Of a stretch of 64,000 nt of DNA, positions 4,250-64,000 are shown piece by piece. Where the stretch lies: the NCBI RefSeq assembly GCF_014356525.2, contig NC_052508.1, positions 46,851,858 to 46,915,857 of the forward strand. The letters are read 5' to 3'. Below the pieces are notes generated by a model, which saw only the letters and a list, made by a program, of their open reading frames with translations, made no database searches and was not told where the DNA came from. The first letter of the stretch is position 1, and each line of letters opens with the position of its first letter. The DNA comes from Nilaparvata lugens (Eukaryota; Arthropoda; Insecta; Hemiptera; Delphacidae). A program made the translations under genes and the position numbers.

Positions 4250-5341
4250 ATTTTTATTATGGCAGAAGCACGGAAATCAGCCTATCGACTGAAAGTTGCA
4301 GGCAAATGGAGAGAAGGCCTGTCCGGAACAGGCCACTGCACAATCACCAAAGCTGTTGCTCACAGCCCTGTGCTTGAAATGATGTCAGATGTCATGAGTT
4401 GGTTTTCACTAAACCTTTCTCTGTTAAATTCTGCTCTAGAGAGGTGTGGAAGTCTGAGGAAGGGCCCTATCTCAAAAGAGGCAGCCTTGTCTGGTACACG
4501 GACGGTTCTCTTATTGAAGGGAAATCTGGCTACGGGGTGTACAGTGATTCACCCAGAACACAAGTTTATGCAAGTCTGGGACAACACTGTACCATCTTTC
4601 TAGCAGAGACTTGGGGCATCATGGCTTGTGCCGACATAGGCATTGCCAGACGCTATTGCAACAAGCATATAGTAATCCTGTCAGATTGTCAGGAAGCCCT
4701 CAAGGCTCTTGACTCCAATAAAATCAAATCTAAATTGGTGTGGGAGTGCCACAAAACACTCAGCAGGCTTGTAACACGCAACTCTGTGCATCTTGGTTGG
4801 GTACCCGGCCATGTAGGCATAGGAGGTAACGAGCGTGCAGATGAGCTTGCTAAGCGGGGTTCCAGTATGCCATTCTTTGGTCCAGAGCCAAGCTGTGGCA
4901 TAAGCAAAACAACTGCCTTCCATATACAATAAGTAAATGGTCCAGGGACTTACATCACCAGCAATGGCAGGGTCACCCTGGTCAAGCACTTGGCAAAGGC
5001 TGCTGGCAGACGCAAGCCCTCGCTTCACCAGCTGGCTGGTAAGTCTGGGTAGAGGTCAGGTCAAGCAGTTGATTGCCCTGATAACTGGACATGGCCACTT
5101 CAGGAAACATCTCCACACAATTGGACTCATAAATTAAAGTCAGATGTGTAGGCTTTGTAATCAGTCTGAAGAGACTGCTAAGTATATCATACTGGATTGT
5201 GAGAGACTTGGGGCTAGAAGAAGGGCTCTGTTTGGCTGCAAGCAACCAGGTGTGGAATGGGATGTTGGTATAGGGAAAAAACTGGACCTTGTTAAGGACA
5301 CAGGAATTGATTTGCCTAACTAACATACTTGGAACACACAA
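4250..5341 (+). pseudogene. Decayed LINE ORF2, RNase H and zinc-knuckle part
   Basis: This continues the LINE interrupted at 618. It starts with IMAEARKSAYRLK, which joins the preceding HIF/HIY segment. An open stretch at 4399-4932 holds an RNase H domain: VWYTDGS with the first catalytic Asp, AETWGIMA with the Glu, ILSDCQEALKAL with the second Asp, and VPGHVGIGGNERADELAK with the terminal His/Asp motif. After a frameshift the end reads CRLCNQSEETAKYIILDCERLG, a CCHC-type knuckle, then a stop near 5320. Presence of RNase H argues for the I/LOA side of the LINE tree. The catalytic residues look intact but the ORF is broken several times. Confidence 0.85.
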
Positions 5342-19534: not shown

Positions 19535-19678
19535 GGATCCTTCCAAATCCACCTCTTTTTCACCATGTTATTATAATTAAGTTATTTTACTCGTTTCGCT
19601 TGCTTACAAGGGGGATGCGCCCCCTGGACATTAACAAGTGGATCACAAGTGGCTCACAGGTTACCTTCAACCACCCAT

Positions 19679-20486
19679 TGCCGTGCTACCAATTTTTCCT
19701 TAAACGGTTGGAATAGCATTTAACACCTATCAACCTAAGAATAGTTGTCGGCTCCAATAAAATAGATTCTTGATAAACTGTGAATGGATCTATTGCCTAT
19801 GAATGAGAAATCCAGTTTTCAGAGCAAATTAACTTATAATCTTCAGATGAAAATACACAAAATACAGAAAGAGAAAATATCTTAAGACTAATTATTTCAA
19901 GAGTTATTACGAACTATAATACTTATCTAGTTTACAGTTGAAACACAGTGGCTATTGGCTTTACTACATTAACAACTAAATCTGACCAAAACAGCACAAA
20001 ATTTTATATAAAACTCAATCTACAACATTAATAAACGAAAATGATTTAGAGCAAAACTCCACGACAACATTTGTAGCCAGCCATTGTTTTTAGAAGAGAA
20101 GGAAGGGCTGAACAGGAAAAGCAAAGTTGAAAGTCACCAAACCAACGCCCTGTTCAATATCGATCTCCACAGACACGTCATCAAAAAATTATAACTTATA
20201 AGTTTAGAATTCACATTCTACATCTGTTCTCAATAAAACTTTAATTTGAAAATGTTATTTTAAATTTTTATATATATATCATCTCTATTTAACTAAACCA
20301 TTTATCTTTTTAATTCTGTCAACCCAGCCTCGGTGACACCATGGAACAATGCAACAAACATTTACGATAATAAATTCTCCGTCAAAAAGTTTATCTGTCT
20401 ATTGATAACTCTGACATTTACTATAAAGTTCCATAGATCTCGAATTGAAGATTCGATTCAAATGTGAGAAAAAATGTAATATTACA
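19679..20486 (-). repeat. LTR of the element (3' LTR in its own orientation)
   Basis: 808 bp, near-identical to 24746-25557. It is preceded in the sense direction by the polypurine tract at 20500-20491. Confidence 0.88.
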
Positions 20487-24553: not shown

Positions 24554-24745
24554 TTTGCTAGTCTGCACAGATAATATATTCATTAGGACTTGATCTCTCT
24601 TGAACCGATTTCCCACTCAGCAACAAACCATTCATAACCTATCAAGATATCTATCCACTAATATTTTCTATAACCAGGGATTTCATGGTGTACCATTTGG
24701 GACATATTTATTTTGTAATTCTGTCCCACCACAGGGCGTACCATT

Positions 24746-25557
24746 TGCCGTGCTACCAATTTTTCCTTAAACGGTTGGAATAGCATTTAACACCTATCAA
24801 CCTAAGAATAGTTGTCGGCTCCAATAAAATAGATTCTTGATAAACTGTGAATGGATCTATTGCCTATGAATGAGAAATCCAGTTTTCAGAGCAAATTAAC
24901 TTATAATCTTCAGATGAAAATACACAAAATACAGAAAGAGAAAATATCTTAAGACTAATTATTTCAAGAGTTATTACGAACTATAATACTTATCTAGTTT
25001 ACAGTTGAAACACAGTGGCTATTGGCTTTACTACATTAACAACTAAATCTGACCAAAACAGCACAAAATTTTATATAAAACTCAATCTACAACATTAATA
25101 AACGAAAATGATTTAGAGCAAAACTCCACGACAACATTTGTAGCCAGCCATTGTTTTTAGAAGAGAAGGAAGGGCTGAACAGGAAAAGCAAAGTTGAAAG
25201 TCACCAAACCAACGCCCTGTTCAATATCAATCTCCACAGACACGTCATCAAAAAATTATAACTTATAAGTTTAGAATTCACATTCTACATCTGTTCTCAA
25301 TAAAACTTTAATTTGAAAATGTTATTTTAAATTTTTATATATATATATATCATCTCTATTTAACTAAACCATTTATCTTTTTAATTCTGTCAACCCAGCC
25401 TTGGTGACACCATGGAACAATGCAACAAACATTTACGATAATAAATTCTCCGTCAAAAAGTTTATCCGTCTATTGATAACTCTGACATTTACTATAAAGT
25501 TCCATAGATCTCGAATTGAAGATTCGATTCAAATGTGAGAAAAAATGTAATATTACA
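24746..25557 (-). repeat. LTR of the element (5' LTR in its own orientation)
   Basis: 812 bp; 4 bp longer than its partner because of a TA repeat near 25340. It carries the promoter in such elements, though no TATA element was assigned. Confidence 0.88.
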
Positions 25558-26693: not shown

Positions 26694-26778
26694 TATCGGG
26701 GCACTGAGCTTCGCTCGTTATTTTTATTTATTGATAAACATAACACAATTCTCTAAAATGATCGTGTTTATATTTTAC
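26694..26778. repeat. End fragment of the 'tatcggggcacc' fold-back family
   Basis: tatcggggcactgagcttcg followed by ttatttttatttattgataa matches the end of the element at 42771-43756. It stops exactly where the duplicated block begins. Confidence 0.55.
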
Positions 26779-28090
26779 AGCTGGCTATACGTCAGCTTAT
26801 GACGTTAAACCGTTGGAATATTTAATTAATAAATGTTTTCTATCAGGCTACTTCCCAAAAAAGTTCAAAGTTGCAAAAGTGATAGCTCTTCACAAAGCTG
26901 GTGATCATACACAACCCGGAAATTATAGACCTATAAGTCTTTCAAAAATATTTGAAAAAATTGATCAAAATTAGATTAGTTTGTTTCCTAGATGAAATAA
27001 AATTAATATGGGTTCCAATCTGGTAAGTCAACCACTGATGCTGTTCTCCACTCAACTAACATCATAAATAACAATTTCAAATCCAAGCATAAAACACTAT
27101 CAATTTTTTTAGACCTTGCAGAGGCGTTTGATTCCATACCACACAAAATACTATTGCAAAAATTATATAATTGTGGAGTTGTTAGGGGCATAGCAAACGA
27201 TCTGCTTGCGAGTTATCTAACGGATCGCTCTCAATATTTGACAATTAATGGTGAAACAAATTTGAAAAATATTTCTGTATTTGGTCTTCCTCAAGACACA
27301 GTCCTTTCACCATTGCTCTTTTTGATTTACGTTAATGACCTCTTGAATCTGAAAATACCTAACTGCAGAGTAATTTCATTTGCTGATGACACGGCTCTTG
27401 TTTTTTCTAGTGTGTCATAGGGGCATGTTTATAACAATGCAAATGAGGGCTTGAAAATATTGTAAAATCATGGTTTGATAGACATGTAGGCTACTCACCA
27501 TGAACCTGAAGAAGACTAAATTTATGACTTTTTCCCCTACTGAAATCCTTAAAATATTTGGGTATAATGATGGATGATCATATACTCATATTGAAGAGTA
27601 TAGTATTGAAGATATATGAAGAGTCTCATATTGAAGATATTTAAGCCGTGCAGACGGCTTAAATATCTAATTTATAAGTTTTATAAACTAAATTAAATTG
27701 CTGATATGGTAATACAGTAATGTAAAAGATTTATTATGCTTATGCGCAATCACTTTTCCAATATGGAATTGAGATATGGGGGGCTGCTTTATGATATCCA
27801 TATGAACAAATTATTCACATTACAGAAACACCTTATCAGAGCTGCATTATGCAAGCCAAGATTGTACCCTAGTAGACTTCTTTTTCAAGAATTCAAGGTG
27901 CTTACAGTGAGGCAAACATAATTATGTTAAAAGAATCGTATTATTCATTAATAAGAATAGTGATACATTCAACTTAAGGAATAATCCATATAATTTGCGT
28001 CCCTCCAATCCGTTACAATTTGATATTGACTTTACCAGCTTAAGTGTATGTAGACGTCAGTTTGAATATCCTAATTTATAATATTGTCCA
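26779..28090 (+). pseudogene. Dead Jockey/CR1-group LINE reverse transcriptase (copy 1)
   Basis: Broken RT with recognisable blocks in order: KVIALHKAGDHTQPGNYRPI, then FLDLAEAFDSIPHK-like sequence near 27110, GLPQDTVLSPLLFLIYVNDL near 27285, and FADDTALVF at 27379. Later come QKHLIRAALCKPRLYPSRLL and RNNPYNLRPSNPLQFDI near the end. PQD replaces the usual PQG. The start is truncated inside the RT, so endonuclease is absent. Frameshifts and stops are frequent. Confidence 0.8.
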
Positions 28091-28240
28091 AGTATTTTCT
28101 TTTTTTATTCTGATTTGTCTAAATAACCTAAAAGATTATGTTCAATTATGTGGGAGGTTGAGTTTATACTTTTTTACTCTTTCAAATGACATAAGATATT
28201 ATTATAAATGTTTTAATTGTTGAGTAATAAACTCAAATAA

Positions 28241-28800
28241 TGAAAAGTTTTTTGATCAGCTGTTTTAGCACACTTGAAATTTAGCGGCCGGAAAGAGTAA
28301 ATTTAGCGACCGGCCTTAGCCGGAAAGAAACCTGTTCTAACGTCAGACGAGAGTCGTCTGCAAACAATGTCTTTCAGATCTACGTAGGGACTGGAAAACA
28401 GCTGCATTCTTTGCAGTGTGGCGAAAAATGTTTATCTTAAATTATCTATATTATTCATTATGTAGTGTTTCATTCTTGTGTTATAAATTAAAAAAAAAAT
28501 ATATTTGTCATGGCTTCCTTGAATTGGTCTTTTTGAGTTTGTCATTTTGTTACTTTGTTTTATCGTTTGTAAGTATTGAGATGTGACATGGTTTCCATAA
28601 TTTTATTTATTCTAGTGGTTTGAATAAGCTCTTTTTCTTTCTATTGACATGTTTGCTGACTAGTTGTTCGAACTCACTGCCGGCGCACAAGTTTTCTTTG
28701 CCGGTAGTGCCATTTTGTAAGTTGGAATATTTATTTTATCAATCTGTATTATTTTACGGCAAATAAATGAAGATTACTATTATTATTATGAACTTCGGAG
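28241..28800. repeat. LINE 3' region and unclassified repeat in copy 1
   Basis: 28080-28285 recurs inverted at 55010-55215, ending at the same gatcagctgttttagcacac segment. This indicates a mobile 3' end. The following part includes cactgccggcgcacaag and an ATT run. Confidence 0.55.
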
Positions 28801-28904
28801 ATGCGATATTTTGATTTTCCACAGAATCACTCGCTCAGTTTTTACTATCCACAGACGACTTAAGTCTCAGCTGTTTCAGACAAGGATGAATATATTATCC
28901 TTTT

Positions 28905-29115
28905 AATGTCGTTCAGCGAGTTTTCCCAAGGATGAAACTAGTGCAATCGAATTTTTATATCATAAACCTACTATGTTCCAAATTTCGTGAAAATCGTTAG
29001 AGCCGTTTTCGAGATCCGTTGAACATAAATAAATAACCATAAAAATATAAAAATAAATATAAATAACCAAATATAAAAATATAAACAGATATTGCTCGCT
29101 TAATATAATAGGATA
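28905..29115 (+). repeat. Dispersed repeat 'ccaaatttcgtgaaaatcgt'
   Basis: It contains gttccaaatttcgtgaaaat and gttttcgagatccgttgaac and ends attgctcgcttaatataat. The same sequence is found at 34965-35150, 43985-44195 (plus) and 43040-43260 (minus). Endings of this kind are widespread in insect genomes. The class was not decided. Confidence 0.6.
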
Positions 29116-29238
29116 ACATCAGCTGAGGCTATTTGGAAGCTATCACACAGACAGACCTTCAAGCGTTGACACAGTCATGTTCAGCTGGTTATAATATACA
29201 GCATAATTTACAACTTTTACATCAACAAACTGATATGG

Positions 29239-29575
29239 GTTGAGATATCAATGTGCGGTTTTTGCCATTCATTTTCTCTTGGAACTCTACATCGAAATCA
29301 TGTATCACATTACCACACTCTCATTTAAAAAAATGAATATGGATACCAAATTACCAACATATGAGGGTCAAAGATGTTGATGCGACAAAGTAATTATTCA
29401 TTTCATTAGGATCCTCAATAAAACCTACAGTCAAATTATTCTTGTAAAAGAAATATTTAGCTGTTTCCCTGATTTTCACCAAATCTGTATAATCAAAAGT
29501 TGCGGGTTTCAAAGATTACAATACAACGACAGTTCTTGAGCGAGTTCTCCAACCCAGGGGGCCACTAGTTTATAA
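29239..29575. repeat. Dispersed repeat 'gagatatcratgtgcgg' copy
   Basis: Starts gagatatcaatgtgcggtt and ends tgagcgagttctccaaccca; same family as 8735-8980. Confidence 0.5.
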
Positions 29576-29652
29576 CCCAAGACAAGTTCAACAAATTTCT
29601 ACGAGAACATCTTCTGTTGCACATAAAATATCTAAACGATAATATCGTCTAT

Positions 29653-29950
29653 TATCACGTACACCCTGAGTAGCTTCAGAGGTGGGTGATTGATACCCAG
29701 GTGTTGCTCCTGGATGACTTCGCTCAGTCGTAATGTGGGCGGGGAAAGGAGGCAAGTCGAAGTTCCTCTTCCTTCTTCTTTGTCCCTCAGCTGGCGTGAA
29801 CAGCACCTCCTGGTGCTTCTGACGGCGTGAAGGTCGCTCTCTTCTCTGATGACACCACTTTGATGTAATTTTGTATCGGCCTTACGGCCTCGGTTAACAA
29901 GCCATGTAAAACAAATAAATGTGATGGAATTGTGTCTTTTTCAAATGTAA
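29653..29950. other. Spacer between duplicated block and LINE
   Basis: More GC-rich than its surroundings, with cctcctggtgcttctgac and the palindromic cggccttacggcctcgg. No gene recognised. Confidence 0.4.
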
Positions 29951-29954
29951 TTTT

Positions 29955-32555
29955 ATAGTAGATGAGTTGGATTACGAAATAAAAGAATCTAACTCAATTC
30001 TTTTGGATGTACAAGTGCCAGGTGCGAAGGATAAGATAACACTTATCGCTGTTTATAGGTCTCCTTCAACCAATGTAGATAATTTTCTCAATTGTTTGAA
30101 TGATTGTTTGTATTTTATCAAAAATAAGCCCAATATAATTTTTGCCGGTGACTTGAATATACATCTGAATAAGTCTACGCTTGCGACTAATGAATATTTC
30201 GGAATTTTATCTTTGAATGGTTTTAAATCATACATAAACAAGCCTACTAGAGTTCAAAACGGCACTGAATCGATTATCGATCACATATTTTTAAAGAATT
30301 CCTCTTTCAATCCTGACAATGTATTAAGTTCAGTAATAAAAACAAGCATCACTGATCACTTTTGTGTCAGCATCCACATTGATCTTTCAACTGACAAAAT
30401 TGTAAGTAAAAATAATTCTTTCAATAAAATAGATTTCAATAAATTAATATTATCCATTGAAACTGAAAACTGGGATAACTTATTAGATGACAATTTACAT
30501 GTGAATGAAGCAATGCAATTTTAACTGACAAAATATCAAATCACATTAAACTTGCAACAGTTACAGTAAAGATTCCGCATAAATTACAACCCCTTAAACC
30601 TTGGATTACGCGTGGACTTGTACATTCCATTAAAAAACGGGACAAATTGTTTAAAACACTTTCAAAGCAGCCTTTCAATGACCGTTTAAGAAATGAGTAT
30701 AAAAATTACAGAAATCTTCTTAATAAATTAATAAAACAGAATAAATGTGAGTATTATAAGAATAAAATTAATCAGAATATAAACAACTCTAAGAAAATCT
30801 GGGAAACTTTAAATGAATTGTTAGGTAGAAGACATACTAAAAAATTCCCAAAATAGAAGCTGATACACTAAATCAACATTTTGCTCGCGTAGGAAAACTT
30901 TATGCTGAGAAATTGAAGTTAAATAATCCCATTGCAACAACATGTAATCATTTCAAGGACTCATGTGTGGAGCATTACAACTCTTTCTTCTTGACACCTA
31001 CCAATGAAAATGAAATTACTGCTACAATAAACTCTCTAAACAATAACTCAGCTCCAGGAATTGATAATATTAGCAATAGGATTTTAAAAACTATTTCACC
31101 ACATATTATAAAACCATTGAAGGTGATAATAAATCAATGTTTTGCGGAGGGGTTTTCCCTGATAGTTTAAAATTAGCCAATATCATACCCCTACATAAAT
31201 CAGGTGATGCTTCTAATCCATCAAATTATCGTCCAATCAGCTTGTTGAGTACTTTTTCCAAAATTATTGAGAAGTTAATAAAATACCGTTTAGTTAGCTA
31301 TCTCCTAAAGCATAATATAATTCACAAAAATCAATTTGGCTTTCAGTCTAAAAAAAGTACAGTAGATGCAATATCTCTTCTAACACAGAAAATTACAGAA
31401 AATTTCAATAACAAAAATAAAACAATAGCCATATTTTTAGACCTTGCTAAAGCTTTTGACACTATTCCTCACTCAAAACTTCTGATAAAAATGGAAAAGT
31501 TGGGTATTCGAGGAATAGCCCTTGAATTATTTAAGAGCTATTTAAAAATAGATTCCAATTGCTCAAAATTGATAATAAAACCAGCCTTGAACAACTCACT
31601 GATTACGGTCTTCCACAAGGAACAGTCTTGTCGCCGATTCTCTTCCTAATCTACATTAATGATCTTCTCAAGTTAGAATTAAAAATGGTGTCTCAATTGC
31701 TTTTGCTGATGACACTTCATTGTTATTCAGTGAAACGAATTGGGAGAATACTAAAAAAGCAGCAGAATCCGGACTTAAAATAGTAAAATCCTGGTTTGAT
31801 GAGCATATATTAACATTGAACATAAAAAAAAGTAATTTCATGTCTTTCTCTCCAAATTCTATAGGCCAGCCGCAAGGTTTGGATTCCATTAAAATCCATA
31901 ATGTAAATTGCAAAGAGTCTGATTGGATAAATTGTACATGCTCAAAGCTTAATAGAGAACATCGTGTTAAATATTTGGGTGTAATGATTGATCAACATTT
32001 GCGTTGGGATGTTCACATCAATAGTACATGTAACAAACTCAGACATTGGATAAGTAAATTCCGTAATATCAGCCAAGTTAGTAATAAAAAAATCTCAAGA
32101 CTCATATATTTTGCCTACATTCAATCATTTCTGCAATATGGAATAAAATTTGGGGTGGAACATACTCAAACCACTTGGAGAAACTTTTTGTAATTCAAAA
32201 ACACATTATAAGAGCTATATTGGGAAAACCCAGACTCTATCCAAGTGAGTACCTGTTTAGTGAGCTAGATGTTTTAACTGTCAGGCAGCTTTACATAAAA
32301 AATTTAATCATCTACATAAATAAACATATGAATCTTTTCAACCTGCGTGTTTCACCATATAACCTCCGTCCCTCATCTATTACCTTTCAAATTACAGATA
32401 CTATTTTATCAATTTGTAGAAAACAATTTTTATATCAGGTATCAAAGCTCATCAATGTTATTCCTAACCATTTTATCACTAGTAAATTGAATAGAAAACT
32501 GCTAATTGAAATTCATACATGGATAATCTCGAACAATGTAATTTTGGCAATGTAA
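29955..32555 (+). pseudogene. Decayed Jockey/CR1-group LINE ORF2 (endonuclease and RT)
   Basis: The endonuclease is 5'-truncated but shows ITLIAVYRSPST, FAGDLNIHLN, SIIDHIFLKN and SITDHFCVS, the later catalytic blocks of the APE-type fold. After linker KPWITRGLVHSIKKRDKL comes the RT: NNSAPGIDNISNRILK, IIPLHKSGDASNPSNYRPI, NQFGFQSKKSTVDA, FLDLAKAFDTIPHSK, YGLPQGTVLSPILFLIYIND, FADDTSLLF (near 31700) and VKYLGVMIDQHLRWD. At least six frameshifts break it (near 30520, 30856, 31140, 31555, 31690 and 32150). No RNase H. It is related to, but distinct from, the LINE in the flanking duplicated blocks. Confidence 0.85.
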
Positions 32556-32833
32556 TTTCCTCATAGCTTAGTATAAAGACTTCTCATGTTTTTTATGTAA
32601 TCTTCAACTATTCTTTACTCTCCCCTATACCTTCACTCTGCTCTTTCTCTTCCCTTCCTTACTCACTTTTTCTTTTCCCTATTTCTTAATAATATCCCAT
32701 TATTATTTTCATATACTGTTAAGCATTGAACACTCGGCCTCTGCGCTCAGGTTCCTCGAACCTTGCAGGGACTTCCCGTTTTTAATATAGTTATGTATAA
32801 TCCTATTAATGGTATTTTTCTTTTTCATTTTAT
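32556..32833 (+). other. LINE 3' UTR and spacer
   Basis: Pyrimidine-rich (ctctttctcttcccttcc) then AT-rich sequence with cactcggcctctgcgctcag. No gene. Confidence 0.4.
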
Positions 32834-34150
32834 AGCTGGCTATACGTCAGCTTATGACGTTAAACCGTTGGAATATTTAATTAATAAATGTTTTCTATCA
32901 GGCTACTTCCCAAAAAGTTCAAAGTTGCAAAAGTGATAGCTCTTCACAAAGCTGGTGATCATACACAACCCGGAAATTATAGACCTATAAGTCTTTCAAA
33001 AATATTTGAAAAAAATGATAAAAATTAGATTAGTTTGTTTCCTAGATGAAATAAAATTAATATGGGTTCCAATCTGGTAAGTCAACCACTGATGCTGTTC
33101 TCCACTCAACTAACATCATAAATAACAATTTCAAATCCAAGCATAAAACACTATCAGTTTTTTTGGACCTTGCAGAGGCGTTTGATTCCATACCACACAA
33201 AATAATATTGCAAAAATTATATAATTGTGGAGTTAGGGGCATAGCAAACGATCTGCTTGCGAGTTATCTAACGGATCGCTCTCAATATTTGACAATTAAT
33301 GGTAAAACAAATTTGAAAAATATTTCTGTATTTGGTCTTCCTCAAGACACAGTCCTTTCACCATTGCTCTTTTTGATTTACGTTAATGACCTCTTGAATC
33401 TGAAAATACCTAACTGCAGAGTAATTTCATTTGCTGATGACACGGCTCTTGTTTTTTCTGGTGTGTCATGGGGGGATGTTTATAACAATGCAAATGAGGG
33501 CTTGAAAATATTGTAAAAACATGGTTTGATAGACATGTACTCACCATGAACCTGAAGAAGACTAAATTTATGACTTTTTCCCCTACTGAAATCCTTAAAA
33601 TATTTGGGTATAATGATGGATGATCATATAAAATGGGATACTCATATTGAAGAGTATAGTATTGAAGATATATGAAGAGTCTCATATTGAAGATATTTAA
33701 GCCGTGCAGACGGCTTAAATATCTAATTTATAAGTTTTATAAACTAAATTAAATTGCTGATATGGTAATACAGTAATGAAAAAGATTTATTATGCTTATG
33801 CGCAATCACTTTTCCAATATGGAATTGAGATATGGGGGGCTGCTTTATGATATCCATATGAACAAATTATTCACATTACAGAAACACCTTATCAGAGCTG
33901 CATTATGCAAGCCAAGATTGTACCCTAGTAGACTTCTTTTTCAAGAATTCAAGGTGCTTACAGTGAGGCAAACATAATTATGTTAAAAGAATCGTATTAT
34001 TCATTAATAAGAATAGTGATACATTCAACTTAAGGAATAATCCATATAATTTGCGTCCCTCCAATCCGTTACAATTTGATATTGACTTTACCAGCTTAAG
34101 TGTATGTAGACGTCAGTTTGAATATCCTAATTTATAATATTGTCCAAGTA
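32834..34150 (+). pseudogene. Dead Jockey/CR1-group LINE reverse transcriptase (copy 2)
   Basis: The same broken RT as copy 1. The longest open stretch (33163-33516) holds AEAFDSIPHKIILQKLYN, GLPQDTVLSPLLFLIYVNDL and FADDTALVFSG. It shares the PQD substitution and several stops with copy 1, so the sequence was already dead when it was duplicated. Confidence 0.8.
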
Positions 34151-35690
34151 TTTTCTTTTTTTATTCTGATTTGTCTAAATAACCTAAAAGATTATGTTCA
34201 ATTATGTGGGAGGTTGAGTTTATACTTTTTTATTCTTTCAAATGACATAAGATATTATTACAAATGTTTTAATTGTTGAGTAATAAACTCAAATAATTAA
34301 AAGTTTTTTGATCAGCTGTTTTAGCACACTTGAAATTTAGCGGCCGGAAAGAGTAAATTTAGCGACCGTCCTTAGCCGGAAAGAAACCTGTTCTAACGTC
34401 AGACGAGAGTCGTCTGCAAACAATGTCTTTCAGATCTACGTAGGGACTGGAAAACAGCTGCATTCTTTGCAGTGTGGCGAAAAATGTTTATCTTAAATTA
34501 TCTATATTCATCATGTAGTGTTTCATTCTTGTGTTATAAATTTAAAAAAAATATTTGTCATGGCTTCCTTGAATTGGTCTTTTTGAGTTTGTCATTTTGT
34601 TACTTTGTCTTATCGTTTGTAAGTATTGAGATGTGACCTGGTTTCCATAATTTTATTTATTCTAGTGGTTTGAATAAGCTCTTTTTCTTTCTATTGACAT
34701 GTTTGCTGACTAGTTGTTCGAACTCACTGCCGGCGCACAAGTTTTCTTTGCCGGTAGTGCCATTTTGTAAGTTGGAATATTTATTTTATCAATCTGTATT
34801 ATTTTACGGCAAATAAATGAAGATTACTATTATTATTATGAACTTCGGAGATGCGATATTTTGATTTTCCACAGAATCACTCACTCACTTTTTACTATCC
34901 ACAGACGACTAAAGTCTCAGCTGTTTCAGACAAGGATGAATATATTATCCTTTTAATGTCGTTCAGCGAGTTTTCCCAAGGATGAACCTAGTGCAATCGA
35001 ATTTTTATATCATAAACCTACTATGTTCCAAATTTCGTGAAAATCGTTAGAGCCGTTTTTGAGATCCGTTGAACATAAATAAATAACCATAAAAATATAA
35101 ATAACCAAATATAAAAATATAAACAGATATTGCTCGCTTAATATAATAGGATAACATCAGCTGAGGCTATTTGGAAGCTATCACACAGACAGACCTTCAA
35201 GCGTTGACACAGTCATGATTTCAGCTGGTTAATATACAACATAATTTACAACTTTTACATCAACAAACTGATATGGGTTGAGATATCAATGTGCAGTTTT
35301 TTCCATTCATTTTCTCTTGGAACTCTACATCGAAATCATGTATCACATTACCACACTCTCATTTAAAAAAATGAATATGGATACCAAATTACCAACATAT
35401 GAGGGTCAAAGATGTTGATGCGACAAAGTAATTATTCATTTCATTAGGATCCTCAATAAAACCTACAGTCAAATTATTCTTGTAAAAGAAATATTTAGCT
35501 GTTTCCCTGATTTTCACCAAATCTGTATAATCAAAAGTTGCTGGTTTCAAAGATTACAATACAACGACAGTTCTTGAGCGAGTTCTCCAACCCAGGGGGC
35601 CACTAGTTTATAACCCAAGACAAGTTCAACAAATTTCTACGAGAACATCTTCTGTTGCACATAAAATATCTAAACGATAATATCGTCTAT
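32834..35690 (+). repeat. Duplicated 2.9-kb block, copy 2
   Basis: Second copy of 26779-29652, in the same orientation and with the same outer limits, including the shared truncation of the RT at both ends. It differs by small indels and substitutions, for example gttgttaggggc against gttaggggc. Confidence 0.85.
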
Positions 35691-57508: not shown

Positions 57509-57735
57509 CTACACCAACTCGAAGGGCTTTGTTCTCTTCAACCTCCTTGTGAGTTCAGTTCTGTCTAGGAGTTGGATGACTTCGGTGTTGTCGTGTTGAT
57601 GAAGACGTGACTCATGATGGGCTGCCAATCGTCTTATTTCACTGGTCACATAGGGGATGTGTAGATCTCGGTGCAAATCGCTGTTCCTTATGTACCAGGG
57701 CGCATTCACCATGTTCCGCAGTACTTTGTTTTGGA
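57509..57735 (-). pseudogene. Jockey LINE ORF2 C-terminus after frameshift
   Basis: MVNAPWYIRNSDLHRDLHIP and a tail ending RLKRTKPFELV form the usual Jockey C-terminus. A one-base shift near 57730 separates it from the main frame. Confidence 0.8.
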
Positions 57736-59994
57736 ATGTTTAAATCTGGTTGATGTTAGATGTTCTAGACGAGCCCCAAGCTGAATTCCATACGTCCAGA
57801 CAGGTTTCAGAATTTGTTTATAAATCAATATTTTGTTTTCCAATGAGAGTTGTGATTGTCTGCCCAACAGCCAATAGATTTTACTGTATTTGAGTCCCAG
57901 CTCACTCCTTTTCATCTTGATATGCTCTTTCCATTTCAACTTGGCGTCAAGAGTCATTCCAAGGTATTTTGCTGTGTTGCTGTGTGGTACTACATTCCCA
58001 TTTAGATTTATACGAATCGGATCATTGATATTTTTGTTTGTGAAGTTGATATGAATGGACTTCATCTCATTCAATCGGATTCTCCATTTCTTTGTCCAGT
58101 CACTGAATTTGTTGCTAGCATTCTGTAGTTTTGTGGCTGCTTCTTGTACTGTTTCCCCTTCTGCCAGTATTGCAGTATCATCAGCAAAAGTAGCAATTGT
58201 CACTGCATCCAATTCAGGAAGATCGCTTGTGTACAGCACATAAAGAACTGGTCCAAGAAAACTACCTTGTGGAACTCCAGCCCTTATTTCCTTTAATTCA
58301 GAGACGTCATCACCTTGTTTTACTCTGAACAATCTGTTAGTGATGTATGATTTTAAAAGTTTTACAAGTGGAGTGGGAAGAATTTTATGAAGTTTATTGA
58401 TCAGTCCTTCATGCCACACTTTGTCAAATGCCTGTGCCACATCAAGTAAGATTGCTGAGCATATACATTTTTTCTCTAATGAATTCTCTATTACATTAGT
58501 GATTCTATGTACTTGGTCCAGGGTTGAGTGCTTCTGCCTGAAGCCAAATTGATGGGCTGGTATCAGATTCCTGCTACTTATGATGGGAGCCAATCTCTTC
58601 ATTAGCAATTTCTCAAAAAGCTTTGAAATTACAGGTAGAAGAGATATTGGGCGGTACGATTTTGCTTCTTGAGGACATTTCCCAGGCTTTTGCAGCATAA
58701 TGACTTCTGCCACCTTCCAAATTGAAGGAAAATGCTGTAAATATGTTAGCATGATAATACCTTTCCTTGGAAGTTTCTTCAAGATTTCACCTGTAATCAG
58801 ATCAAACCCAGGTGCTTTTTTGGTAATCAGATTATTTTTTATTTCTTCTTGAACCTCATTTATAGAAACTAGATCAATCTTTGTATCTAAATCATCTATT
58901 ATATCTTCTTCAGGATCAATTTCAGATTGAATGTTGTTTGGCTGAAAGATTTCTTCTAGATGATTAGCAAATATATCTGCCTTTTCACTGTTATTTCTTG
59001 CCCAAGTACCATCTGGTTTTCTGATTGGAGGGGATTGTGATATTGGTCGCTTAATTCTTTTTGTTGCTTTCCATAATGAATAATCTGTACTGGCATCAGC
59101 TGTCAAATTTTGAAGGTAGTTATTAATGGACTCCTCAGTTAGTTTCCTTATCTCTCTTCTCAATTGTTGTGTTTTGTTATTCAATATATTTTTGTCAGCA
59201 GGATCACGTGTTTGTTGCCATCTTCTTCTTGCCCTTCGTTTCTCTAAAACAAGTTGTCGAATCTCCAGTGGGTAATTGCATCCTTTTGTTTTCCTGGTGT
59301 ATTGTCTAGTGTTTTTCCAGGCTGATTTCTGGATTTCCCACATGAAATTTTCTGCGGCTTCATCTAACTGCTCAGCTGTTCTAAGAGGAATATTCAAGTT
59401 GATTTCATTCTCCAAATCCACTTTGAAAGCTTCCCAGTCTGTTGTTCTGTTGACTAACATTGGTCTGTCTTCTTTCTTTATTATTCGTTCACTTAGTGTG
59501 AGAATTACAGCTGAATGATCAGAATCCAGGTCAAAGCTCTCTTCAATGTCAATAAAATTACTGGATATTCTCTTTGTTATGAAGAAATCTAGAAGATCTG
59601 GAGTTTTATTCAAATCTGTTGGCCAATAAGTAGGTGTCCCTGTTAAATGGAATTCGCAGCCCAGCTCCTGGATAGCCTCTCTGAGTTCTTTTCCTTTGGT
59701 AGTTATGAGTCTTGAACCCCAATCCTTATGCTTGGCATTAAAATCTCCACCCACAATTTTCTCTTCTTCCTCCCAATTCGGTGGTGAATAACTTTTATTG
59801 GTACTTATAGACGATGCTGGTTGCATTGTATTTGAAGCTGATGATTGAATCTTCTGTGTTGTTGAAGATGCTGAAGAAAACATCTCTCTCAGCTGATTGA
59901 TCTCCAACCGTGCACTCTCCAACTCCTTTTCCAGCTTATTCATTCTTTCTCTCTCTTCACTCTGTTGACAAGTGACTTCTTTCCATTTTTTCAA
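57706..59994 (-). pseudogene. Jockey-type LINE ORF with RT, endonuclease half missing
   Basis: A 762-codon open frame. Residues 1-45 form a coiled coil (ERERMNKLEKELESARLEIN). A Ser-rich stretch then runs directly into GGDFNAKHKDWGSRL, the middle of the APE endonuclease, followed by LLDFFIT and DLDSDHSAV. The N-terminal endonuclease half with the metal-binding Asn and Glu is absent. RT follows: KAPGFDLITGEILKKLP, SYRPISLLPVISKLFEKLL, HQFGFRQKHSTLDQV, LLDVAQAFDKVWHEGLI, GVPQGSFLGPVLYVLYTSDL and FADDTAIL (58190-58163). These are Jockey signatures. The fusion suggests an internal deletion joining ORF1 to ORF2 in frame. The frame begins without ATG, at the junction with the inserted LINE. Confidence 0.85.
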
Positions 59995-60000
59995 ATTTTC

Positions 60001-60510
60001 AAATTTTCAAATTTTTATTTTATTTATTCAAGTAAGTTACAATACATTCTGGTTCATACACGAATCTACAATAAATTACAGTACAACAGCCAATTATGCA
60101 GCAAATTTTACATATTATGAAAACTTATTAATTACAATGAAGATTGAATGCAACATTAGAATATTGATAATATAGTATTGTAATATAACTACATAAATCA
60201 GCGGTGTTTCAACAATGAATAAATGATAATTTCAATGAATAAATATACACCCCACTATATATTATATGTGTTGGGGTATAAGTAATTAGTTGCTTATTGC
60301 GTGTAATAATTACTATTTACAAACTTCATTCACTGATATGGGATTAAAGTTTTTTATAATAAAATTAGTAAAAATGTATAATACAAACAAACAAATTATG
60401 GAATTAGTAAATAAATATTAATGTTCTATTAAGGATAATAATAAGAAAGGTTATTTTTAGAAAAATGAAAAACAGTAAAGAGTGGAATGAAGAATAAATA
60501 GTTTCAATAT
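60001..60510 (-). other. 3' UTR of the helicase-bearing LINE
   Basis: AT-rich, without ORF, ending in the aaaatttg tail. Confidence 0.6.
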
Positions 60511-62523
60511 TTACAGTCTAACTAAATTTTCACAATTTTCCACTCCAATATCAACCAACCAGGAAAATAAACTTTTCTTGAACCTGTGTCTATTGAATTC
60601 TTCCCTAATGTAACTTGGTATTGAATTATAAATTTTTGGTCCCAAATATGTGTAGTTTCTTTGCCCAAATGTAGTGTTCATCCTTGGTACTATTGAATAC
60701 GTGTTTCTCTGCCTTGTTTGATGGTTATGATCTGCCAGTCTTATGTGTTCGTTGTTTCTCCTCATTCGCGTGATGATAGCCTGGATGTAGAGTTGTCTTA
60801 CACTCAGTACTTTACTGTCCTTGAAAAGAATGTTCGTGGGGAATTGATTCTCCTTGAAGCCTATTATTTTTAGTATTCGTTTTTGAAGTTTATAGAGAGG
60901 TTCAACATGTGTAAAATTCGTAGCTCCCCAGATAATTATGACGTATCTTAAAATTGATTGCACTAAAGAAAAATAAACAGTTTTTAATGTCTCATAGTTG
61001 AGGATTTTACGGAGTTGATAGAATTTGTAGAGAAGCTTCCTGATCCGGGTAATTGATAGATTAATGTGCTTGTCCCATTTGAATTTGTTGTCCACTATTG
61101 TTCCTAAATATTTTATTTCATTGACTTGTTGAATTGAAGGGCAATCACACGGGTTGTTGGTGCTTCCACAGTGATGCAGGATTATTGAAGAATCCGGTGG
61201 TCTCGTCCGTTCTGTCAGAGAAAAGGCTAAAAATTTCGTTTTTGTTGCATTTACTGTAAGCAAATTTTCTCTTAACCATTTATCGACTTTGATCAATTCT
61301 TCCTGTGCCAGATTAAAAACTTCCTCCCAGGTGTTTCCTTCAAATAGTATACACGTATCATCAGCAAAAGCTATTACTCTTCCTCTTATCTTAATTGAAC
61401 ATAGCTCATTTGCATATGCCAAATACAGAATTGGCCCAAGAACTGTTCCTTGGGGAATCCCAAACTTCATCGTTCCCTCTGAACTGAGATGTTCTTCAAC
61501 TTTGACTTTTTGACGCCGGTCACAGAGGTATGATCTAAACCATGCTAGAGGAACTCCTCTAATTCCCATGGCTTCTAATTTCTTCAGCAGCAAACTGTGA
61601 TTAACAGTGTCAAAAGCTTTTGCTAGGTCCAGGAACACTGCTGCACATTTTTTGTTATTTTCTAGCTTATCTGTGACAAAATTTGACAATTCTAATACCG
61701 CATCTTCTGTACTCCTCCCCTCACGAAAACCAAATTGATTCCTAGATAGTAAGTTGTTTTTTTCCATGTAATTCACAAGACGTTTCTTTACCAGTTTTTC
61801 CAAAATCTTAGAAATATTGCTTATAAGTGAAATAGGCCTGTAATTGGTGGCATTTGTTTTGTCGCCTCCTTTATGTAATGGTCTAACACATGTCTCTTTC
61901 ATAGCTTTTGGAAAAATTCCTTTTGACAGACTTAAATTAAATATGTGAATTAATGGTTTTACAATTACATTTTTTATCGACTTCAATGTTCTATTATTGA
62001 TTCCATCAAGTCCTGGAGCACTGTCATTTCGCAAACTACTAATAGCTTCAAGAAGCTCATCTTCAGTTACTGGGTGAAAGTAGATGGAGTGTAGAGTTCT
62101 TGTAACAGGTTTATATTGGGATATGATTTGGTCTAGTGGTTTTCTTAAGGAATCTATTATTGTCTCCGCCATTTCTTCACCTACATTTGTGAAAAAGTTA
62201 TTCATGTGGTTGAGCACAGTTTCTGGATTTTCCTTTAGATTGAAAATCCTATCATCTATTTTAATAGCATTCAATTTCATTTTTGTTTTTGATTTAGAGT
62301 CAGTAGCATCTTTGATTACTTTCCACATTTTTTTATTATCCTTTCCAGCTTCATACAATTTCTCTCTATAGTATTGGTCCTTTGTTTCATGAATTAAAGC
62401 TGTGAGTGTATTCCTATACCGACGATAGAAGTTGGTTAAGTTAATGTTGTTTGGGTCTTCCTTCTTCTTTTGTTGAGTAGATTTCTGGTTCTTATTGCTG
62501 CTACTATACCTCTGGTGATCCAT
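60511..62523 (-). CDS. Helicase-bearing LINE ORF2, RT part
   Basis: 670 open codons, of which the reverse transcriptase proper starts near codon 150. RT blocks: NDSAPGLDGINNRTLK, RPLHKGGDKTNATNYRPISL, NQFGFREGRSTEDAV, FLDLAKAFDTVNHSLLLKKL, FGIPQGTVLGPILYLAYANE, AFADDTCILF with the catalytic Asp pair (61370-61343), and EIKYLGTIVDNKFKWDKHIN. The C-terminus holds a C..C.C-like segment (HHCGSTNNPCDCPS), QKRILKIIGFKENQFP and RNYTYLGPKIYNSIPSYI. No RNase H. Jockey/CR1 group. It follows the endonuclease frame after a -1 shift in aacaaaagaagaagg, near 62460; a one-base loss is likelier than programmed frameshifting. All RT catalytic residues look intact. Confidence 0.9.
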   Translation of the reverse strand: MDHQRYSSSNKNQKSTQQKKKEDPNNINLTNFYRRYRNTLTALIHETKDQYYREKLYEAGKDNKKMWKVIKDATDSKSKTKMKLNAIKIDDRIFNLKENPETVLNHMNNFFTNVGEEMAETIIDSLRKPLDQIISQYKPVTRTLHSIYFHPVTEDELLEAISSLRNDSAPGLDGINNRTLKSIKNVIVKPLIHIFNLSLSKGIFPKAMKETCVRPLHKGGDKTNATNYRPISLISNISKILEKLVKKRLVNYMEKNNLLSRNQFGFREGRSTEDAVLELSNFVTDKLENNKKCAAVFLDLAKAFDTVNHSLLLKKLEAMGIRGVPLAWFRSYLCDRRQKVKVEEHLSSEGTMKFGIPQGTVLGPILYLAYANELCSIKIRGRVIAFADDTCILFEGNTWEEVFNLAQEELIKVDKWLRENLLTVNATKTKFLAFSLTERTRPPDSSIILHHCGSTNNPCDCPSIQQVNEIKYLGTIVDNKFKWDKHINLSITRIRKLLYKFYQLRKILNYETLKTVYFSLVQSILRYVIIIWGATNFTHVEPLYKLQKRILKIIGFKENQFPTNILFKDSKVLSVRQLYIQAIITRMRRNNEHIRLADHNHQTRQRNTYSIVPRMNTTFGQRNYTYLGPKIYNSIPSYIREEFNRHRFKKSLFSWLVDIGVENCENLVRL

Positions 62524-63506
62524 GGTTTGATGGGTTTGTACTTCTTCTGCCGCCGATGCTGCTTGATATTATTTTGTATATGTTGTCTCAGAGTTGATAA
62601 GAAGGTGTCATAAGATGTATCTGGATTATTATCTTCTAAAACATGAATCCACTCCTCATTCAGTAGTTCATTCTTCAAGCTATTAATGTCTATTTTCTCG
62701 TTTATTTCATGTGTTCCAGTTTCATTTGCACTATTTCTCGAAATATGTTGCACTCCTAGAATTGTGGTGAAGTGGTCAGTTATTGTTGATTCATAAATGA
62801 TTGGAAAAAGATTATCTCTGGAGTTGGTAGCAATGTGATCTATGCAAGAAGCAGTTTCTGTTGTAGTTCTGGTTGCTTGTTTAATGCAGAGTCTGAGCCC
62901 ATGCTCGCTTAGAAGATCGCAGTAGTCATTCAATTGATGATGTGGACGAATTTGAAGGGTGTTAATATTCATGTCTCCGGCACATATGACTTGTTGCCCT
63001 CTTAATTCATTCAGGATCGATTCCAAGTCACTCAGGAAATCTGTAATATCATTGAAGGACGGTGATCTGTATATTGCAAGGATGTTCCACTTTTTGTCTG
63101 CTGCATCCAACCGAATATGTAGGACATTTGCCTGGTTAATATGTAGCTCAACACATTGTACATTTATACTATCTTTAACATAAACAACTACACCATCATT
63201 TTGTAATGGGTTGTTTATGGTGGAAAATACATCATATCCTCGAATGGACTGGAGTACAAATTCAGTCCTAATCCAGCATTCGGTTAGAATAATAACATCA
63301 AAAGAAAAATTAATGTCGCACAATTGAATCATCAGCTCATCAAAATTTCTTCTGATACTCCTTATATTGAGACAGAAGATGCTCAAATCACAAGAACTCA
63401 ATGCTGCACAAAGTTGTTGACTGTTGTTGATCACTTCATCGTTTATTTCTTCAAAATAATCAAGATCCTCGAAGCTGAGCAAATTTGATAAGTTGTTGTT
63501 ACTCAT
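62436..63506 (-). CDS. Helicase-bearing LINE ORF2, endonuclease part
   Basis: 356 codons from ATG 63506. It is a complete APE-type endonuclease: FCLNIRSIRRNFDEL holds the metal-binding Asn, VIILTECWIR the Glu, NILAIYRSPS the conserved Tyr strand, VICAGDMNINTLQ the Asp and Asn, SCIDHIATN the next Asp, and STITDHFTTIL the catalytic Asp-His. The linker KPWITRGIVAAIRTRNLL is shared with the LINE at 29955. The last residues (after about 62465) are out of frame with the RT. The start codon overlaps the stop of the upstream helicase ORF (ATGAGTAA). Confidence 0.9.
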   Translation of the reverse strand: MSNNNLSNLLSFEDLDYFEEINDEVINNSQQLCAALSSCDLSIFCLNIRSIRRNFDELMIQLCDINFSFDVIILTECWIRTEFVLQSIRGYDVFSTINNPLQNDGVVVYVKDSINVQCVELHINQANVLHIRLDAADKKWNILAIYRSPSFNDITDFLSDLESILNELRGQQVICAGDMNINTLQIRPHHQLNDYCDLLSEHGLRLCIKQATRTTTETASCIDHIATNSRDNLFPIIYESTITDHFTTILGVQHISRNSANETGTHEINEKIDINSLKNELLNEEWIHVLEDNNPDTSYDTFLSTLRQHIQNNIKQHRRQKKYKPIKPWITRGIVAAIRTRNLLNKRRRKTQTTLT

Positions 63507-63999
63507 TATTTAAACTCTCATTAATCCCTTCCATGTTTCTTTCATTCCAGCTTAAGAGAAACTCTTCACTAACATCCTTTAGTTTTCGAATTAGGGTCAG
63601 CACTAAATCTTCTTGCCCTGTTGTGATATATCTGAAGGTTTGTGTGTGTCTGCTCATTGCTACTATTACATGTTGTGTGCTGTTATATATTCCAAGTTGT
63701 TTTTTATTGTTCCTTATCAGAACTACATTCTTGTGAGTTAAGCCCTGTGCTTCATGAATTGTATGGACTTTAACTGAAGGGTGAAGTTTTGATTGCAGCT
63801 CTTCTAGCACTGTTTTCTTCTCGAGCTGAGTGAATGTAAGAATCAGAGTGTTAGGTTCAAGTGGTCCAAGTTCTCCATTTGTTATTGGAGGTCTGACGGA
63901 TAACAGGACCTCATTTTTCGTACTAATGTCCTGGTAGTAGCTGGAAAGGATGTAGCAGACGTCTATTGGACACCTTCTAGTTACTGTTTGATGGATTCT
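63499..63999 (-). CDS. Viral-type SF1 RNA helicase domain, partial ORF upstream of LINE ORF2
   Basis: 167 codons open from the window edge to TAA 63501-63499. The blocks are those of the C-terminal RecA-like half of superfamily 1 helicases from alphavirus-like RNA viruses: RRCPIDVCYIL near 63985-63955, LILTFTQLEKK, motif V as VHTIHEAQG (63768-63742), and motif VI as VAMSRHT (63663-63643). Motif VI supplies the arginine finger in this family. A short tail (SEEFLLSWNERNMEGINESL) follows. Motifs I-III, including the ATP-binding P-loop, should lie to the right of the window. In such LINEs it could unwind template RNA or counter silencing; both are speculation. An integrated virus fragment is the alternative, but the ATGAGTAA junction with the LINE ORF argues against it. 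Confidence 0.85.
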   Translation of the reverse strand, partial: RIHQTVTRRCPIDVCYILSSYYQDISTKNEVLLSVRPPITNGELGPLEPNTLILTFTQLEKKTVLEELQSKLHPSVKVHTIHEAQGLTHKNVVLIRNNKKQLGIYNSTQHVIVAMSRHTQTFRYITTGQEDLVLTLIRKLKDVSEEFLLSWNERNMEGINESLNNE

Positions 64000-64000
64000 C

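Follow-up and report, generated by a model that had tools for sequence, protein, structure and literature searches.

The right-hand end of a 64,000-nt stretch of the Nilaparvata lugens genome (positions 46,851,858 to 46,915,857 of NC_052508.1; hereafter the window) carries, on the minus strand, part of a long interspersed nuclear element (LINE) that encodes a viral-type superfamily-1 helicase (SF1H) in an open reading frame (ORF) of its own. Most descriptions of LINEs give one or two ORFs. Here there are three: the helicase occupies the middle one and has not replaced ORF1, a gag-like ORF adjoining it upstream and the endonuclease-reverse transcriptase (EN-RT) ORF, ORF2, adjoining it downstream. 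The whole element is about 6.85 kb, and the window copy appears to be the right-hand cut of such an element, with gag-like (422 amino acids, aa), helicase (644 aa) and ORF2 (998 aa if not broken) frames.

Within the last 502 bases of the window, the minus strand contains one open frame of 166 codons which continues past the edge. None of 20000 first-order resamples of 63499-63999 kept this frame open. The fragment corresponds to the C-terminal quarter of an SF1H ORF of viral type and matches the Viral_helicase1 profile (PF01443; E 2.1e-16, 60.9 bits, cut-off 21) over positions 121-228 of 228, the C-terminal half of the profile. Its nearest solved relative by sequence is the helicase of tomato mosaic virus (PDB 3vkw/3wrx, E about 6e-14), the chains ranking next being far weaker (6jim, E 1.4e-4; 7y38, E 4.7e-4). 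A previous sequence-only reading of the window had placed a virus-type SF1H at this edge by the strings RRCPIDV, TIHEAQG and VAMSRHT; all three are present as it had written them, and the observation is confirmed. We take LILTFTQ, VHTIHEAQG and VAMSRHT to be helicase motifs IV, V and VI, respectively. No second helicase copy was found within the window, and the sole other match (E 0.27) was taken as chance.

Beyond the window, the helicase ORF extends to G000:C5:46917290, or 65433 in window numbering, and thus spans 63499-65433 and encodes 644 aa inside an open frame of 655 codons. Motifs I-III lie in this same ORF outside the window and were read in another copy, L012, whose last 166 helicase residues are identical to those of the window copy. 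A single ORF of L012 holds GVPGCGKT, VFIDE, GDSNQIP, LTFTQ, TIHEAQG and SRHT, corresponding to Walker A, Walker B/DE and motifs III-VI, and matches PF01443 over positions 3-228 of 228 with 142.9 bits. The helicase core is preceded in the middle ORF by a conserved N-terminal domain, which is tentatively macro-like. One segment of the BFVD entry A0A1L3KJX8 matches the full-length model of the helicase ORF, and another segment matches the N-terminal domain.

We searched the genome assembly (G000; 1,085,386,871 bases) with the helicase fragment; of 807 first-look candidates, 150 matches were scored, and the true number may be higher. Of the scored matches, 110 form family 1, with 64-100% identity, and 40 form family 2, with 52-55%; the latter group, of which seven members were fetched, may be mixed. 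The 655-residue frame is free of stops in 17 of the 150 matches, including the window copy, and one further match of that length contains a stop. For comparison, 20 loci were fetched, 13 from family 1 and 7 (L022-L028) from family 2; all but one were chosen for long helicase frames and are a non-random sample.

The order of gag 3′ end, helicase ORF and ORF2 start is the same in all 20 fetched loci. The 422-aa gag-like ORF of the window copy spans 65420-66688 (window numbering), immediately 5′ of the helicase ORF. A stretch of 14 nt is shared by both ORFs, ATGGAAGTGCTTAA in family 1 and ATGGGATTGCTTAA in family 2, and in family 2 a further in-frame ATG is located upstream of the helicase start. 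The helicase and ORF2 overlap by 8 nt in both families (20/20 loci), and both overlap strings were found in 13/13 family-1 and 7/7 family-2 loci. In both families, the gag-like ORF contains the CX2CX4HX4C knuckle twice, a number reached by none of 20000 shuffles in either family, and further a wider knuckle whose spacing, counted from the printed string, is CX2CX8HX6C. A gag-like ORF1 with three zinc knuckles is a feature of the Jockey clade. Pfam detected no gag or zinc-knuckle domain in this ORF at E 0.1, the only match being a poor one to NACHT_N (0.024) in family 2. The gag frame is full-length in 8/13 family-1 and 4/7 family-2 loci and is cut or broken elsewhere; L017 retains the gag 3′ end only. 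ORF2 encodes 998 aa where unbroken, and copies in which all three ORFs are unbroken exist. The sequence-only reading is therefore partly supported as a whole: the helicase is encoded in a separate frame directly upstream of ORF2, as it had stated, and this arrangement is common to many copies, but the helicase is no substitute for a gag-like ORF1, which is present upstream with its 14-nt overlap.

To count the junctions throughout the assembly, patterns were matched with up to two mismatches, and the reversed-pattern controls gave zero. The gag/helicase junction was found at 77 places, the helicase/ORF2 junction, the arrangement for which the sequence-only reading had proposed to look, at 120, and the ORF2 3′ end at 407, a gradient toward the 3′ end that is expected from 5′ truncation of copies. 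Among 100 of the 120 helicase/ORF2 junctions, which were listed, a same-strand partner is present within 6 kb of 62 of the 77 gag/helicase junctions, for 55 of them 1892-1952 bp downstream, and 15 of the 77 have no partner. The family-1 gag 3′-end pattern occurs at 84 places, of which 73 are directly beside a helicase start. Eight others have a same-strand helicase match or helicase/ORF2 junction about 1.4 to 8 kb downstream, two of them at more than 6 kb as interrupted or separate copies, and the last three, seemingly without a helicase start (L055-L057), contain helicase sequence with internal deletions. No copy in which gag leads straight into ORF2 was found with the family-1 gag pattern, a helicase-less close sister family not having been sought. 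In L012 and L024, the copies scanned for domains, the three ORFs contain only helicase and EN-RT domains and neither a methyltransferase nor an RNA-dependent RNA polymerase (RdRp), the partners expected by the sequence-only reading if a viral replicase merely abutted the LINE. Neither of the outcomes that this reading had named as refuting it was thus observed. The recurrence of the junction and its lower number relative to the ORF2 3′ end (120 versus 407), which fits 5′ truncation, show that the helicase is a part of the LINE and moves with it.

Family 2 shares the gene order and both overlaps with family 1. The helicases are 49.9% identical, and motif III reads GDSKQIS in L024 of family 2. 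Within each family, the fetched copies, which had been picked for good matches, are 98.4-99.9% identical over aligned blocks, which shows both families to have been active recently. Between the families (one copy each), we compared the proportions of replacement (pN) and synonymous (pS) differences for gag (54.8% identity, pN 0.269, pS 0.842), helicase (49.9%, pN 0.317, pS 0.768) and ORF2 (40.7%, pN 0.413, pS 0.816). The helicase is better conserved than ORF2. As synonymous sites are saturated, the split between the families is old, and as replacement changes are far rarer than synonymous ones, gag, helicase and ORF2 have all been under purifying selection.

In the window copy, ORF2 starts at 63506 on the same strand as the helicase (Table 1). 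Its endonuclease and reverse transcriptase (RT) domains are both recognized by Pfam, in agreement with the sequence-only reading, but ORF2 is not complete as that reading had it; it is broken into two frames by one frame change between the domains. The endonuclease profiles score just above the cut-off in the window copy and just below it in L012 and L024, and the RT profile is far above the cut-off in L012 and L024. The endonuclease had no relative among solved structures at E 0.1. With the RT as query, a 99% identical partial ORF2 was found on a 2045-base contig (P0002). Tails of TTTGAA-like units, similar to that of the window copy, are present in several other copies. Right after the tail, a second LINE of another kind is located at 57706-60006 (minus strand) with an EN-RT frame of 766 aa. 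As the first part of its endonuclease is absent, the helicase LINE may have been inserted into it.

Table 1. Features of the helicase LINE inside the window (window numbering)
Feature	Position	Strand	Basis
Helicase ORF (middle ORF), C-terminal 166 codons	63499..64000	minus	open-frame list, Pfam, PDB match
RRCPIDV block of helicase	63958..63978	minus	translated string
LILTFTQ string of helicase	63826-63846	minus	translated string
VHTIHEAQG string of helicase	63742..63768	minus	translated string
VAMSRHT string of helicase	63643..63663	minus	translated string
Helicase stop/ORF2 start overlap, 8 nt, ATGAGTAA	63499..63506	minus	sequence
ORF2 first frame, APE-type (apurinic/apyrimidinic) endonuclease	62436..63506	minus	PF14529 2e-06, PF03372 2.5e-05
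ORF2 second frame, reverse transcriptase	60511..62568	minus	PF00078 1.1e-39
3′ tail of short tandem units TTTGAAAA, closing the element	59988..60011	minus	sequence

We searched for relatives of the helicase outside this genome. The 166-aa fragment gave none among 26 candidates scored at E 0.001, probably owing to length limits, and a longer joined query, with 154 candidates, recovered ten relatives, whose sources are labelled jgi and lgn. These relatives, known here as proteins alone, are 341-756 aa long (eight of them 633-652) and 46-59% identical to the fragment. All ten contain PF01443, and in nine of them the helicase core follows a stretch of some 315 to 450 residues with a mean pairwise identity of 37%. 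In a tree of twelve helicases, none of them from viruses or TRAS, families 1 and 2 group with P0122 (support 98/98); family 2 is placed beside P0122 weakly (82/74), and P0131 is on a long branch. No helicase relative was found in the viral contigs scanned with the fragment or with alignments, nor in phage records. A profile search of the PDB matched the helicase part only, plus one row at E 0.63. In fold, the helicase core and part of the preceding region are shared with virga-like virus replicases (Atrato Virga-like virus 1) and with the tobamovirus helicase (3vkw). Unlike these replicases, the LINE has no methyltransferase and no RdRp, and its helicase is linked to gag and RT instead.

Helicase-bearing LINEs of insects have been described before. 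In TRAS/R1 LINEs of Lepidoptera, the helicase is fused to the C-terminus of ORF2 (PMC4686597); these elements resemble the window LINE in carrying a virga/tobamovirus-type SF1H, which in the latter is a separate middle ORF upstream of ORF2. According to PMC5563155, SF1H is also found in Jockey-family LINEs of Hemiptera and Orthoptera, on a branch separate from TRAS, including those of N. lugens, Homalodisca, Gerris and Ceuthophilus; the N. lugens elements were placed in Jockey, and dozens of SF1H sequences as well as transcripts were reported from this species. The independent capture proposed by the sequence-only reading is thus not a new finding, helicase-bearing Jockey LINEs on a branch separate from TRAS having been published in 2017. 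By description, those elements are similar to ours in having SF1H with the full motif set in its own ORF, adjoining or overlapping a Jockey-type EN-RT ORF2. They differ in that the overlap is 2 nt in one contig versus 8 nt here, and in that the helicase ORF is named ORF1, whereas the window family has a gag-like ORF upstream of it. In the passages of that paper covered here, 'gag' and 'CCHC' appear in general remarks only, with no mention of a gag-like ORF upstream of the helicase. A literature search over listings and the beginnings of abstracts, with subscription journals mostly outside it, found no three-ORF helicase LINE. What is new is the three-gene order, both overlaps and the conserved N-terminal domain, tentatively macro-like.

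The same genome harbors two-ORF Jockey/CR1-like LINEs whose EN-RT ORF2 is about 35-37% identical to those of both helicase families (L034, L040 and L042). One of them is the broken Jockey/CR1-like LINE at 29925-32555 of the window (plus strand), which as a genome query gave 150 scored matches of 7754 candidates. We inspected the region upstream of ORF2 at 11 loci: for five of the twenty retrieved with this query it covered about 1.1 kb, and for six from other subfamilies about 2 kb. An ORF matching the helicases or gag was present in 0/11. Nine of these loci carry an ORF1 of another kind, which is about 300 aa long when intact and in some cases cysteine-rich and coiled-coil-like by eye, and L050 and L053 have no clear ORF1. 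The LINE at 29925-32555 is flanked by a direct repeat of about 2.9 kb (26772-29652 and 32827-35690, 97.6% identity). Elsewhere in the window are a direct repeat of 813 bases (19678-20486 and 24745-25557, 99.1% identity) and a retroelement remnant with an RNase H domain at 4378-4932 (plus strand; PF00075, E 1.9e-13).

Several other readings of the anatomy were weighed. A fragment of an endogenous RNA-virus replicase that abuts the LINE by chance would account for the viral type of the helicase, but its probability is close to nil: the identical junction occurs at 120 places, a listed partner lies 1892-1952 bp downstream for 55 of the 77 gag/helicase junctions, the same gene order is found in a second, old family, and the ORFs of L012 and L024 include no methyltransferase or RdRp. 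The recurrent junction, the second family and the missing replicase partner domains refute this reading. Replacement of the gag-like ORF1 by the helicase is hardly more credible, even though the helicase is directly upstream of ORF2, is called ORF1 in PMC5563155, and is preceded by an ORF that Pfam does not recognize at E 0.1 apart from the poor NACHT_N match (0.024) in family 2. The zinc-knuckle gag-like ORF is located upstream in both families, and 73 of 84 gag 3′ ends are directly beside the helicase start; the sequence of this ORF refutes the replacement for families 1 and 2. The many truncated or broken copies might suggest that the middle ORF is a passenger no longer expressed. This is very unlikely, since a stop-free 655-residue frame is listed for 17 of the 150 matches, replacement differences between the families are much less frequent than synonymous ones, and transcripts have been reported in N. 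lugens (PMC5563155).

We consider it likely that the element is a three-ORF LINE whose middle ORF, a virga-like-virus helicase, is under purifying selection and acts on the element's own RNA. The helicase ORF would be derived from the replicase of a virga-like plus-strand RNA virus, probably including the domain that precedes the helicase, and would have been retained by purifying selection. Given the 14- and 8-nt overlaps, helicase and ORF2 would most likely be produced by ribosomal stop and restart. The helicase most likely works on the element RNA within the ribonucleoprotein, where the opening of structured or double-stranded RNA would aid target-primed reverse transcription and would also reduce the double-stranded RNA visible to the host silencing machinery. 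With the same anatomy, the main reason for keeping the helicase might instead be the suppression of silencing pathways of the host that use small interfering or PIWI-interacting RNAs, a role that we regard as possible without favoring it and whose odds overlap those of action on the element RNA. Silencing suppression has been proposed (PMC4686597, PMC5563155 and PMC6338049), with weak suppression reported for a TRAS-encoded helicase in plants; however, that assay used the TRAS helicase and not that of the window LINE, and the full conservation of the ATPase motifs is compatible with either role. It is also conceivable, and put forward tentatively, that a continuous part of a virga-like replicase, with a macro-like domain and the SF1H, was captured as a single ORF between gag and ORF2, became joined to them by two stop-restart overlaps and would form an RNA-remodelling, perhaps ADP-ribose-linked, anti-defence module. 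Some observations weigh against the three-ORF LINE with a helicase of virga-like origin under selection. All three ORFs are single frames in just 1/13 family-1 and 3/7 family-2 fetched loci; the saturated pS does not allow a true pN/pS ratio; the virga-like origin rests on folds and the tobamovirus match and not on a tree; and a search for target-site duplications, made with a poor tail finder, did not establish them, a 9-nt flank match that few random pairs reach (5/500) being present in L018 alone of 10 usable copies.

A stable three-ORF LINE with a captured RNA-virus helicase would be a natural case of gene capture and of three-cistron translation in an insect, and it puts in doubt the label 'ORF1' for such helicases. 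Such an element would also make it possible to find out directly whether carrying a helicase benefits a LINE, be it in reverse transcription or in countering RNA silencing. As both families were active recently, this can be examined in a living system.
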